The notes under the pieces: model-generated
Seen by the model: only the letters and a program-made list of their open reading frames with translations
The model's database searches: none
What the model was told of the DNA's origin: nothing
Program-made: the position numbers and the translations under genes
Source of the DNA: Sulfuriferula nivalis
GTDB taxonomy: Bacteria; Pseudomonadota; Gammaproteobacteria; Burkholderiales; Sulfuriferulaceae
Reading direction: 5' to 3'
Assembly (NCBI RefSeq): GCF_009937995.1
Contig: NZ_AP021881.1
Span: forward strand, 2,294,001-2,358,000
DNA: 64,000 bases
In this document: positions 7,145 through 14,571 of the stretch, piece by piece
How the letters are laid out: each line of letters begins with the position of its first letter
Numbering within the stretch: the stretch's first letter is position 1

Positions 7145-7202
7145 ATCGGGGTCAGGTCTAAAACAGATGCAAAAATGCTACAAAGCTAGACCCGACCCCG
7201 AT
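7145..7202. repeat. REP-like inverted repeat
   Basis: Two 16-bp arms (ATCGGGGTCAGGTCTA at 7145-7160 and TAGACCCGACCCCGAT at 7187-7202) form an inverted repeat with one mismatch around a 26-base spacer. The GGGGTCAGGTCTA core resembles sequences associated with REP/RAYT (TnpA-REP) transposases in betaproteobacteria (recalled, not searched). No such transposase is in the window. The repeat lies 60 bp after glk and could also act as a transcript-end hairpin. Confidence 0.6.
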
Positions 7203-7347: not shown

Positions 7348-8625
7348 ATGTCAAAACAACCACCAAACGCTCAATATATTTCTCCTCAACAATTATGTAT
7401 TGGGCTATATATTCATCTTGATCTGGGCTGGATGGAGCATTCATTTGCTTCCAGCCATTTTAAAATCAAAAATCAGCAGCAAATTGACGATATCCGCAAA
7501 CTCGGATTAAAGCGCATACGCTATGATCCAGCGGTGAGCGACGTAAAGCCCATACCAATTGAAGATAGTCCTCCACCTCCGGTGATAACTGAAACATGGA
7601 ATGCGGAAGAAGAAGCCGTTTTAGCGGAAAAACAATCCAGAATTGAGCAGTTAAAGTCCATACAGAACAATATCGCCCGAGTCGAACACTCGTTTGTTCG
7701 ATCCGTCGACACCGTCAGAAATATCACACGTGATATATATTCCAGACCTGCAGAAGCCTATGCGGAAACCAATACGCTAATTAACAAAATGTTAAGCTGC
7801 ATGGTCGACCATAGCGACATACTCATACACGCTATGGGGAACCACCTGGGTAACAATATTTATTTTCACTCTATGAATGTGACCGTGCTGAGCCTGATGC
7901 TGGCGAAATCATTAGGTTTCAGTAACACGGATATGCAAGATCTGGGCATGGCAGCGATGCTGCACGATATTGGCAAACACGATATCCCACATAAAATACT
8001 GGCGAAAACCGAACCGCTCACTAAAGCAGAGCAAACGATAGTTGAACAGCATTCTGGACTTGGTGCGGCTGCCGCCAAAAAAATGGGGTTATCAAATGCT
8101 GCCTCACTAGCCATACTGCTACACCATGAATATGTTGATGGCAGTGGTTATCCTCGCCAGCTGACTGGGGATAAAATGACGCCGATTTCACGTGTCTTAT
8201 CGCTAGTTAATGCTTATGACAACTTATGCAATCCAGCTAATGGTTCGCCCGGATTAACGCCCGCTGAAGCATTGTCTCGCATGTTTATTAAACAGCGCGC
8301 GAAGTTTGATGATGAGATGCTTAATGCCTTTATCAAAGGGTTGGGAGTATATCCACCTGGCAGTTTAGTGCGACTGTCTAATGACTTAGTGGGGCTGGTT
8401 CTATGTGTAAATTCGTCCAACCCAATGAAACCGGATGTATTGATTTATGATGCTGACACACCAAAAAATGAAGCGGTGATACTGCAACTTGCCAACGAAC
8501 CGGAAATTAAAATCACCAAAAGTTTACGTGTGGCAGAATTGTCACACGAAACAGTTGAATATCTCAATCCACGTACGCATGTAACATACGGTATGGATAC
8601 AAAAACCAAATCCAATTCGTATTAA
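7348..8625 (+). CDS. HD-GYP domain protein, probable cyclic-di-GMP phosphodiesterase
   Basis: A 425-residue soluble protein. The N-terminal 60-70 residues (IGLYIHLDLGWMEHSF, then LGLKRIRYDP) match the DUF3391 domain that often precedes HD-GYP domains. A coiled linker (about 85-125) leads to the HD-GYP domain: His174, HD pair at 206-207 in LHDIGKHD, and HHEYVDGSGYP at 259-269, so the metal ligands and the GYP motif are intact. It should hydrolyse c-di-GMP to pGpG or GMP. It stands alone, with a long upstream gap. Confidence 0.9.
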   Translation: MSKQPPNAQYISPQQLCIGLYIHLDLGWMEHSFASSHFKIKNQQQIDDIRKLGLKRIRYDPAVSDVKPIPIEDSPPPPVITETWNAEEEAVLAEKQSRIEQLKSIQNNIARVEHSFVRSVDTVRNITRDIYSRPAEAYAETNTLINKMLSCMVDHSDILIHAMGNHLGNNIYFHSMNVTVLSLMLAKSLGFSNTDMQDLGMAAMLHDIGKHDIPHKILAKTEPLTKAEQTIVEQHSGLGAAAAKKMGLSNAASLAILLHHEYVDGSGYPRQLTGDKMTPISRVLSLVNAYDNLCNPANGSPGLTPAEALSRMFIKQRAKFDDEMLNAFIKGLGVYPPGSLVRLSNDLVGLVLCVNSSNPMKPDVLIYDADTPKNEAVILQLANEPEIKITKSLRVAELSHETVEYLNPRTHVTYGMDTKTKSNSY

Positions 8626-11558: not shown

Positions 11559-11592
11559 GGTGAGTCCTGTGTTTGTTATCGGATATTAATGT

Positions 11593-11641
11593 GAGACCTT
11601 TGCACGATGTAGCGAGCGCAAGCATCGTGCGAGTAGGTATC
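11593..11641. mobile_element. 49-bp mini-element at the gcvH stop codon
   Basis: A very short element with GAGACC at one end and a degenerate copy (GGTATC) at the other, flanked by direct repeats AATGT at 11588-11592 and 11642-11646. Its first 28 bases are identical to the start of the larger copy at 12099. GCACGATG (11602-11609) and CATCGTGC (11623-11630) form an internal hairpin. Removing it and one AATGT restores a TAA stop for gcvH at the same codon. Confidence 0.75.
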
Positions 11642-12029
11642 AATGTGCTTCTGATTCAACCAACGCCTGATAAGCGGCGGCATCCATCAAGCCAGCCACA
11701 TCAGCGCTGTCAGTTGGTTTAATTGTAAACATCCACGCTGCATAAGCGTCCTGGTTAATGGCCTCTGGTGCAGATTCCACTTCGCTGTTAGACGCAACGA
11801 CTACACCTGCTATTGGTGCATACACATCGGAAGCCGCTTTCACTGACTCAACCACTGCGCATTCTTCGCCTGCGGCCAAAGTGCGACCCACGACCGGGTT
11901 TTCCACAAACACCATATCGCCCAATAAATCTTGCGCATGCGCGGTAATGCCAACGGTCACAGTGCCGTCTGCATTGGTTTTAATCCATTCGTGTGAAGCG
12001 GTATATTTCAAATCTGCTGGTATGCTCAT
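11640..12029 (-). CDS. gcvH: Glycine cleavage system H protein
   Basis: The 129-residue lipoyl carrier of the glycine cleavage complex. Lys64 in [14 protein letters not shown] is the lipoyl-lysine. It shuttles the aminomethyl group from GcvP to GcvT and is reoxidised by a lipoamide dehydrogenase that is not in this window. The present TGA stop uses two bases of a mini-element; before insertion the codon read TAA, so the protein end is unchanged. Confidence 0.96.
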
Positions 12030-12098
12030 ATGTGACTCCTAAATTGAATGTCTAAATGTGTGTTTCGTTTATGCCCTGACGAGCGCAAATCTTAAATT

Positions 12099-12238
12099 GA
12101 GACCTTTGCACGATGTAGCGAGCGCAGTTCAGATGAGGCGGAAATCAGGGAAAAAGCGGAGTGTACAATTAGTACATGAGCATTTTGAGCTGATTTCCAA
12201 CGAAATATGAACAAGCGCAGTAATCGTGCAGAGGTCTC
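12099..12238. mobile_element. 140-bp MITE-like element at the gcvT stop codon
   Basis: A non-autonomous element with terminal inverted repeats (GAGACCTTTGCACGAT at 12099-12114 and ATCGTGCAGAGGTCTC at 12223-12238) and a 5-bp direct repeat AAATT on each side (12094-12098 and 12239-12243). It has no open frame. The ends resemble those of IS5-type elements in betaproteobacteria (recalled, not searched). It sits in the gcvT-gcvH gap, and its last two bases help form the gcvT stop codon. Confidence 0.85.
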
Positions 12239-13310
12239 AAATTAATGAATGTCCATTACGCGCGAAAGGATAGCTTACCACTTTCGCTTTAAGTTGTTTA
12301 TCGCGCACGGTCACGGTGACTTCAGCACCAGGTGCAATGCCCAGCGGTATCCGTGCCAGCGCAATGGATTGCTGTAATGTAGGAGAAAAAGTGCCGCTGG
12401 TGATTTCGCCTGCGCCGTGTTTGGTATTGACCACTTGATGTGCACGCAACACACCTTTATCCAGCAATAACAGACCAACTAACTGCATATTGATATCACG
12501 TGACTGCAGTGCAGACTTGCCGATAAAATCACGCTCACTTTTCAGGTCTATCGTCCATGCCAAACCTGATTCCAGCGGGTTGGTGGTTTCATCCATGTCC
12601 TGACCATACAGGTTCATCCCCGCTTCCAGACGCAAGGTATCACGTGCGCCCAGACCTATAGGTTTAACGCCCAAACCTGCCAGCTTACACCACATGGCAT
12701 CGGCTTCAGCAACCGGCAACATGACCTCGAAACCATCTTCACCGGTATAACCGGTACGGGCAATATAGTATTGCTGAAACTCCACTGCATTAAACGGCTT
12801 CATCGCTTCGGTCACTGACTGTGAACCCGGAATAGCTTCCCATACCTTGGCACGGGCATTCGGCCCTTGCACCGCAATCATCGCCAGATCACGACGTGGA
12901 GTAATGGTCAGCGCCCGACCAGCTGCTTGCTGCTGCATCCATGCGACGTCTTTTTTTGCGGTGCCCGCATTGACCACAATACGGAACCAGTCCTCAGTCA
13001 TAAAATAGATAATCAAATCATCTATCACCCCACCTTCAGGATTGAGCATGCACGAATACAACGCCTTGCCGCTGACGGTGAGCTTGTCTACATTATTAGC
13101 AACCAATCCACGCAAGAAACCGCGTACATCGCCACCTTTCACATCAACAACCAGCATGTGGCACACGTCGAACATGCCGACATCGTTACGCACCTGATGA
13201 TGTTCTTCGATCTGCGAGCCGTAATTAACCGGCATATCCCAGCCACCAAAATCGACCATCTTTGCACCCATGTCACGGTGCGCTGCGTTAAGTGGAGTCT
13301 GTTTTAACAT
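12237..13310 (-). CDS. gcvT: Aminomethyltransferase (glycine cleavage T protein)
   Basis: The 357-residue T protein transfers the methylene group from aminomethyl-lipoyl GcvH to tetrahydrofolate and releases ammonia. It shows the family start ([33 protein letters not shown]), an early Asp for catalysis in VGMFDVCHM, and [11 protein letters not shown]. It follows lipA by 37 bp. Its stop TGA is built from the first T of the original TAA plus GA from the MITE, leaving the C-terminus ...NGHSLI unchanged. Confidence 0.96.
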
Positions 13311-14274: not shown

Positions 14275-14315
14275 AAGTTGGTCTATAGGTTAAGTGGTAA
14301 CGATACGCAATCATC

Positions 14316-14510
14316 ACCCCTCTGTCCTATTTACCTGAGAGATTACAGCGCGATGATCACGCTGTGTGCCCCTTCGGTGGACGCCTACGCGTCGCTCTCC
14401 AGAGATGCCCTGTATTTACGGTTCGGGGGCCTGAGCGATTCTGGGTGAATTACGCCTTCGGCGGCAATCGCGGGACGAACTCTTCAGCGCGATTACACTC
14501 TCCCGCAAAC
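14316..14510 (-). promoter_or_regulatory. Tandem glycine riboswitch
   Basis: On the minus strand two glycine aptamers lie in series. The first begins GCGGGAGAG near 14506 and contains CCGCCGAAGGCG; the second has TCTGGAGAGCG and CCACCGAAGGGGC and ends TCTCAGGTAAATAGGACAGA near 14319. These are the conserved core elements of the glycine (gcvT) riboswitch class, joined by the usual short linker. It lies 41 bp upstream of lipA and should turn the lipA-gcvTH-gcvPAB operon on when glycine is plentiful. Confidence 0.94.
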
Positions 14511-14571
14511 ACTACGGACAAGCCAGCATTATACTCAAACTGACTGAAAAATACTTGCAGAATATCGTGAA

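Follow-up and report, generated by a model that had tools for sequence, protein, structure and literature searches.

Small elements with IS5-type ends that complete the stop codons of gcvT and gcvH in Sulfuriferula nivalis, and the placement of their relatives at gene ends

Two insertions in the glycine-cleavage operon

The window analysed here is a stretch of 64 000 nucleotides of the Sulfuriferula nivalis genome (contig NZ_AP021881.1, positions 2 294 001 to 2 358 000). Its minus strand carries a glycine-cleavage operon in which gcvT is followed by gcvH and then by two ORFs that each resemble half of gcvP; the names of gcvT and gcvH come from NCBIfam matches, and the two gcvP-like halves were recognised by eye only. 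A tandem glycine riboswitch (14312–14515, minus strand) lies upstream of a lipA-like ORF and the gcv genes. The ends of gcvT and gcvH are laid out as follows.

11588–11592, no strand: target-site duplication AATGT, gcvH-distal copy, identical to 11642–11646
11593–11641, plus strand: 49 bp short-form MITE copy in the gcvH stop codon, with a degenerate right end
11640–12029, minus strand: gcvH, ORF of 129 amino acids (NCBIfam TIGR00527)
11642–11646, no strand: target-site duplication AATGT, copy at the gcvH end; 11642 is the T of the new TGA
12094–12098, no strand: target-site duplication AAATT, gcvT-distal copy, identical to 12239–12243
12099–12238, plus strand: 140 bp MITE copy in the gcvT stop codon, with the ends GAGACCTTTGCACGA and GAGACCTCTGCACGA
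12142–12200, plus strand: 59 nt core hairpin within the 140 bp copy, common to repeats with unrelated ends
12237–13310, minus strand: gcvT, ORF of 357 amino acids (NCBIfam TIGR00528)
12239–12243, no strand: target-site duplication AAATT, copy at the gcvT end; 12239 is the T of the new TGA

The first-pass annotation had described a 140 bp copy (AAATT) and a 49 bp copy (AATGT), each placed after the first T of a stop codon and supplying the GA of a TGA, and this can be read directly in the window. The gcvH stop (11640–11642, minus strand) owes its T to the AATGT duplication, while the element contributes the GA, and the gcvT stop (12237–12239, minus strand) is composed in the same way with the T of AAATT. 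When the element and one duplication are removed on paper, gcvH ends in CAT TAA and gcvT in ATT TAA. The right end of the 49 bp copy reads GATACC on the coding side, not GAGACC, and still supplies GA; this end (11631–11641, GAGTAGGTATC) shows clustered departures from the family end despite the perfect duplication. The inverted-repeat arms of the 140 bp copy, duplication included, are 23 nt long and 91% complementary. The stretch that holds the gcvT copy folds far better than shuffled sequences (z = −9.4 as DNA and −9.6 as RNA), while the stretch with the gcvH copy has a weaker folding excess (RNA z = −4.1).

The outer ends of the two copies face inward around gcvH, 646 bp apart (11593–12238), and this pair may possibly be a composite unit able to move gcvH. 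The gap between gcvT and gcvH behind the gcvT element (12044–12093) is longer than in near relatives and similar to theirs only near gcvH; the 69 bp that separate gcvH from the gcvT element were searched for as another repeat, with no second convincing copy in the genome. Elsewhere in the window, a short inverted repeat at 7145–7202 (16 nt arms, 94% complementary) possibly belongs to another repeat family.

The two copies lie in adjacent genes, at the same codon position and in the same orientation, as they might if a single insertion had been copied together with its flank. However, their duplications (AATGT and AAATT) and lengths (49 and 140 bp) differ and their flanks are unrelated, and the two insertions are therefore independent, as the first-pass annotation had proposed. 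A single duplication event as the source of both is impossible with such flanks, and we leave it next to no probability. Short forms also move alone elsewhere: the relative G013 has free 47 bp forms (L076, L079 and L080), each with its own perfect duplication, so that the 49 bp gcvH copy represents a second mobile size class.

The relatives agree with independence. Fifteen genomes of the genus, the window's own included, have a close gcvH, and the element is absent from its end in all 14 others, where the gene closes with CAT TAA (G014, G012, G013, G008 and G001), CAC TAA (G017), CAT TAG (G007) or, in seven more distant genomes of the genus, TGA. The window's genome has CAT TGA followed by the element, and its nearest relatives have TAA without it. 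The gcvT copy is likewise absent from the relatives examined. In near relatives gcvT ends one codon later, with ATT TCC TGA (G014, G012 and G013) or ATT GCT TAA (G017), and its pre-insertion TAA is thus reconstructed from the duplication only; the statement that TAA became TGA with the protein end unchanged is consequently backed by relatives for gcvH and not for gcvT. A third insertion of the element in the gcv operon occurs in G017, at the lipA stop, in the lipA–gcvT junction (L081, with one mismatch in the duplication).

The element, its core hairpin and known systems

The element is a MITE, and its ends (GAGACCTTTGCA) are of a known IS5 type. Its end motif, with up to two mismatches, is matched 18 times in the window's genome, compared with five times for a reversed control pattern, and BLAST with the 140 bp copy as query recovers six full-length copies there. 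Matches at E ≤ 0.001 are found in 12 of the 61 genomes searched, the window's own included, and the 140 bp query matches one Halomonas record in a plasmid collection, in which a 47 nt end query gave no useful match. Genome G160, from another family, has 26 related copies, with a perfect 5 bp duplication in 22. The 33 copies counted in the genus comprise 16 with a perfect duplication and 17 with one mismatch, a set selected on that very criterion. A wide scan of the genome_contigs collection for 13 bp ends spaced 98–128 bp apart gave at least 120 stretches, which are a sample; the matches listed hold 124 distinct elements, many from Gammaproteobacteria and Nitrosomonas, and a perfect 5 bp duplication is present in 75 of the 120 listed elements for which both duplications were measurable. 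The counted copies are 43–157 bp long. A 68 bp relative in the window's genome (L128, G000:C1:1399408-1399475), with the ends GAGAGTTTTGCACGA and GAGAATTTTGCACGA, has no matching duplication.

A relative of IS length with the same end type occurs in Candidatus Endonucleobacter (1331 bp, L253:4266-5596), flanked by a perfect 5 bp duplication, AATGA. Its transposase is broken and split over two frames, with matches to DUF772 and DDE_Tnp_1 and an NCBIfam IS5_4 match below the curated cut-off. In the window's genome (G000), the DDE half of this transposase has no match at E ≤ 1e-10, and the 18 end matches form no inward pair of IS length besides that of gcvH and gcvT. The search for an autonomous parent in the genus gave only distant transposases (31–38% identity) in three of 18 genomes, none of them the window's. 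The mobilising enzyme would be a transposase of the IS5 family.

Membership of the Correia, ERIC or REP repeats can be rejected, with 5 bp duplications in place of TA. REP repeats have a tetranucleotide head, and ISAba12, the parent of MITEAba12, belongs to the IS5 family. Enterobacterial repeats have a TA duplication (PMC2759123). MITEAba12 is, like the present element, a small MITE and prefers AT-richer targets, but it and ISAba12 make 9 bp duplications, the parent has ends of the GGCTTTGTTGCA type, and their insertions are reported to disrupt or truncate genes (PMC6382973). The end GAGACCTTTGCA has been published for BrickBuilt copies and for the IS5-family element ISNme1, whose end it equals, and is in this respect an IS5-family end type (PMC4596501); the same string also appears in a Kingella capsule paper (PMC5070880). 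Mobilisation by IS5-family transposases has been proposed both for BrickBuilt, by ISPg1, and for ATR of Neisseria meningitidis, by ISNme1 (PMC4596501). BrickBuilt of Porphyromonas gingivalis shares with our element an identical end and its noncoding nature, yet it contains a minisatellite and its reported duplications vary in length (PMC4596501), whereas the copies studied here are hairpins, mostly of 47 or 137–142 bp, with 5 bp duplications and placement on stops; the main text of that paper does not use the term ‘stop codon’. One BrickBuilt MITE is also listed next to gcvT in P. gingivalis (PMC4596501), which is probably a coincidence. QMITE2 of Coxiella burnetii is also a hairpin MITE, reported mainly in 3′ untranslated regions (PMC5896051, PMC10969869), but at the end of enhC it extends the protein by 33 residues and is not described there as completing a stop with its first bases (PMC5896051). 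In ISPsp10 (reported as IS5 family, IS427 group), the joining of element and target likewise creates a stop codon, but in that case it is the transposase that acquires its stop from the target, whereas here the host gene has its stop completed by the element (PMC4133298). Open-access literature searches turned up no account of stop codons being completed or targeted by an inserting MITE or IS, and the phrase ‘stop codon’ is absent from the main text of a 2024 review of MITEs (PMC10969869).

The core of the longer copies is a hairpin whose loop varies and whose single-stranded parts are conserved around CGGAG and ATGAG. Allowing up to five substitutions, it is present in 23 of the 24 genus elements longer than 100 bp, in all 26 copies of G160 and in 75 of the 124 wide-set elements among the matches listed. 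Across 19 core sequences, 92.9% of the pair cells are standard and double changes number 49, compared with a mean of 16 in shuffles and 4–14 in slid controls. Of 61 genomes, 22 contain the core according to a covariance model, and one has at least 90 matches. It also occurs in repeats with other ends, and the ends and target duplications of core-bearing elements (the 140 bp copy of the window, L047, L048, L068, L129, L157 and L344–L403) are of three or more unrelated kinds. These sister repeats have GAACCTG ends with 3 bp TNA duplications, or CAGGCTGTTGAAAAAC ends with 4 bp duplications (TTAG, TTAA). Between positions 8000 and 15000 of the window, Rfam matched only the glycine riboswitch at the gathering level and not the core, and for five core-bearing loci it returned two chance-level matches far below gathering. 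A literature search with core sequence strings returned one unrelated paper only.

Placement relative to gene ends

Our table of insertions has 146 entries, of which 33 come from the genus, 26 from G160 and 87 from elsewhere (the wide set). Genes were called by our own script on the rebuilt empty sites, either as ORFs of at least 100 amino acids or by a codon-usage score trained per set. For each insertion, the position d is measured from the first base of the stop to the cut, and d 1–7 means that the duplication overlaps the stop. The genus offered 54 relative loci (L069–L122), 18 of them without pairable ends; from the 36 paired loci we kept 26, with at most one mismatch in the duplication, and added seven from the window's genome. 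Loci with poorer duplications (L089, L092, L093, L095, L097, L098, L111, L112 and L113) were left out, together with L114 (orthologous to L107) and the 68 bp copy L128. For the wide set, in which the search itself required intact ends, 19 of the 124 elements were dropped for want of 400 bp of flank, and 14 with more than two duplication mismatches were set aside and added in a repeat test; the remaining 91 became 87 on removal of copies shared with the genus and of orthologous ones.

The comparison of copies with stop codons that the first-pass annotation had suggested shows that placement is not random overall, with about twice the number expected within the same gaps. The duplication overlaps a true stop in ten of the 33 genus copies (at comEC, lipA, a PilT/PilU-type ATPase gene, a sensor-kinase-like gene, kup, hisC, a potF-like gene, one gene without an NCBIfam match, gcvT and gcvH) and in 11 of the 87 non-redundant copies of the wide set. 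The G160 figure depends on the gene criterion (three with short ORFs, two of the 26 copies with ORFs of at least 100 amino acids and one with codon scoring). A model of the AT-rich target over all non-ORF positions expects 2.2 overlaps for the genus, 3.8 for the wide set and 0.85 for G160. With the AT model confined to the same gap and codon-based genes, the excess is 10 versus 5.36 in the genus (P = 0.0014), 11 versus 5.39 in the wide set (P = 0.005) and 22 versus 12.15 in all sets (P = 1.4e-4), and the 26 copies of G160 show none (1.40 expected, P = 0.89).

Without gcvT and gcvH, the copies that prompted the idea, the genus gives 8 versus 4.73 (P = 0.009, on selected copies). Copies with a less clear end or duplication lie on a stop in none of ten cases in the genus and four of 14 in the wide set. 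Once these are added, 10 of 43 genus copies are on stops (10 versus 6.09 among the non-ORF copies, P = 0.012; 8 versus 5.46, P = 0.06, without gcvT and gcvH), as are 15 of 101 in the wide set (15 versus 7.28, P = 4.5e-4) and 26 of 170 overall (26 versus 14.77, P = 6e-5). The genus excess alone is suggestive, and it is the outside set that carries the claim, because it had no part in forming the idea. Restricting the genus to perfect duplications, again without gcvT and gcvH, leaves 3 versus 2.2 at d 1–7 (P = 0.21) and 3 versus 0.83 for insertions that split the stop (P = 0.003). In the wide set, splitting alone is not significant (3 versus 1.45, P = 0.17, or 4 versus 2.08, P = 0.14, with the unclear copies).

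Nine of the 146 insertions split a stop codon, and in all nine a stop is present today at the same codon. Three cut TAA after its first base and gave TGA, three cut TAA after its second base and gave TAG, and three cut TAG after its second base and left it TAG. The codon is rebuilt because the element ends read GA(G), which yields T+GA or TA+G; intact ends being a search condition in the wide set, its three re-formed stops follow from the ends. A cut after TG of TGA, which would destroy the stop, is absent among what are only nine splits. The protein is unchanged in seven of the nine, and its last residue differs in the other two, where the two copies of the duplication differ.

The edge of this distribution is sharp. 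When all 146 insertions are compared with expectation from target composition over all positions, there are 9 versus 1.06 cuts after stop base 1 or 2, 14 versus 1.57 at d 3–7, 27 versus 6.56 at d 8–30, and 3 versus 4.82 over the 31 positions from d −30 to 0. The two positions just before the stop have no cuts, against nine inside stops. The step falls after the last sense codon and ahead of the second stop base, instead of downstream of the whole stop, and an element that can complete the codon should give this pattern. All three insertions at d −30 to 0 change their protein: L252 (d −2) adds eight residues, L084 (d −11) adds two and changes the tail, and L069 (d −10) removes four. In the gap-restricted model d 8–30 is not enriched (21 versus 19.2), and insertions within 40 bp of gene starts are not depleted (23 versus 25.8).

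The base profile at the 75 sites with perfect duplications shows AT-richness across some 17 bp, more or less evenly to both sides of the 5 bp duplication, and no strict target motif. A central TA in the duplication is favoured (27 versus 18.3 expected, of 73 sites); this preference is mild and is also a property of stop codons, and the excess at stops remains when TA, TAA/TTA or stop-triplet terms are added to the target model. At the 73 sites without a gene stop within 30 bp, stop triplets occur in the duplication, on either strand, 28 times versus 27.5 expected, which is evidence against the triplet being recognised. What the element favours is AT-rich DNA. Insertions within a stop are tolerated and those just upstream are rare; a preference for the stop codon itself as a target is not supported. 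Of the harmless target preference suggested by the first-pass annotation, the harmless placement is supported, with all nine split stops rebuilt, and the targeting of stop codons is not.

Sister repeats were counted in the same way at 17 of 35 loci in G044, 31 distinct loci of at least 90 in G038, seven of 13 in G011 and four of 11 in G030; two short loci of G038 and two of G011 with other ends (L396 and L397) were dropped, as were copies with imperfect duplications (seven in G044, four in G038, two in G011 and one in G030). Among copies with perfect duplications, 8/10 in G044, 7/25 in G038, 2/3 in G030 and 3/3 in G011 are on gene stops; with the ORF-length caller the counts are 6/17, 9/29, 2/4 and 4/5, respectively. 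Only the G044 repeats (L344–L360, GAACCTG ends) significantly exceed what the target motif predicts in the same gap (8 versus 3.26, P = 1.5e-4).

Probable survival at rebuilt stops and its alternatives

The best explanation, to which we give a probability of about 70%, is that insertion simply favours AT-rich DNA and that stops completed by the element ends act as free landing sites where copies survive. A non-autonomous MITE with IS5-type ends (5′-GAGACCTTTGCAC) would be pasted into AT-rich DNA with a 5 bp duplication. Either end reads GAG on the strand of the gene that receives it, so that in both orientations a cut behind the T of a stop yields TGA (T+GA), while TAA and TAG, if cut behind their second base, yield TAG (TA+G). 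After insertion in the stop the reading frame would end at the same place, whereas insertion one or more bases upstream would alter the C-terminus. Where genomes are compact, AT-rich stop codons and a few bases downstream of them would then be free landing sites, the copies there would survive, and the gcvT and gcvH insertions would be two independent cases of this in one operon. We infer that the excess was made by selection rather than by targeting; survival is most likely, with room for targeting of 3′ ends or for a benefit.

The case for a benefit, which we consider unlikely, starts from RNA: the transcribed hairpin might serve as a 3′ mRNA element (in protection, RNase III processing or the uncoupling of operon genes) and be kept because it helps. 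The predicted RNA structure is strong, about −57 kcal/mol for the gcvT copy, the covarying core is common to repeats with unrelated ends, and copies recur within the gcv operon, in gcvT and gcvH here and in lipA in G017; yet the 47–49 bp form lacks the core, and the relatives examined have neither the gcvT nor the gcvH copy. Somewhat less probable than a benefit is active targeting, in which the transposase or a host factor would steer insertion to the 3′ ends of genes, for instance towards the stop codon region during translation or as transcription terminates, so that stops would be preferred and more than tolerated. The same-gap excess is indeed confined to d 1–7 and does not extend to d 8–30, and starts are not depleted, and both observations count against selection as the sole cause; repeats of the sister families, whose ends differ and whose duplications are of 3 or 4 bp, are on stops as well, above all in G044. 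However, stop triplets away from gene ends are not preferred, the 26 copies of G160 show no excess, and the sister repeats are on stops no more often than the target motif predicts in the same gap in G030 and G011, nor significantly so in G038 (7 versus 4.31, P = 0.08).

The least probable of these three alternatives is coincidence, an AT-rich target meeting AT-rich stops where the genome is compact, the element ends playing no part. The target is AT-rich, much of the raw excess disappears when the genus expectation rises from 2.2 to 4.9–6.1 under the same-gap null, and the genus without gcvT and gcvH reaches only P = 0.06 with the unclear copies added. A twofold excess nevertheless persists (P from 0.005 to 0.0005 in the wide set and from 1.4e-4 to 6e-5 for all copies), and coincidence has to accommodate the contrast between the cuts inside stops and the two empty positions just before them.

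As for the core itself, it is conceivable but unlikely, if a shade more probable than the benefit considered above, that the 59 nt hairpin is a module carried by MITE families with unrelated ends and target rules (GAGACC with 5 bp AT-rich targets, GAACCTG with 3 bp TNA and CAGGCTGTTGAAAAAC with 4 bp targets). It would then be on stops as a mobile 3′-end mRNA element, and stop-compatible ends and targets would be part of that lifestyle.

Returning to survival at rebuilt stops, stop-completing placement is supported as harmless, and the idea that the element recognises stop codons is not. What emerges is a rule for harmless sites: when the end of an element begins with GAG, any TAA still reads as a stop once it has been cut behind its first or second base. 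The rule predicts which transposons should accumulate at stops in compact genomes. It bears on annotation, where TGA and TAG stops can be the product of insertions, and on the reading of operon 3′ ends, and, with a covarying core hairpin in common, such repeats can be tested directly for a functional role.
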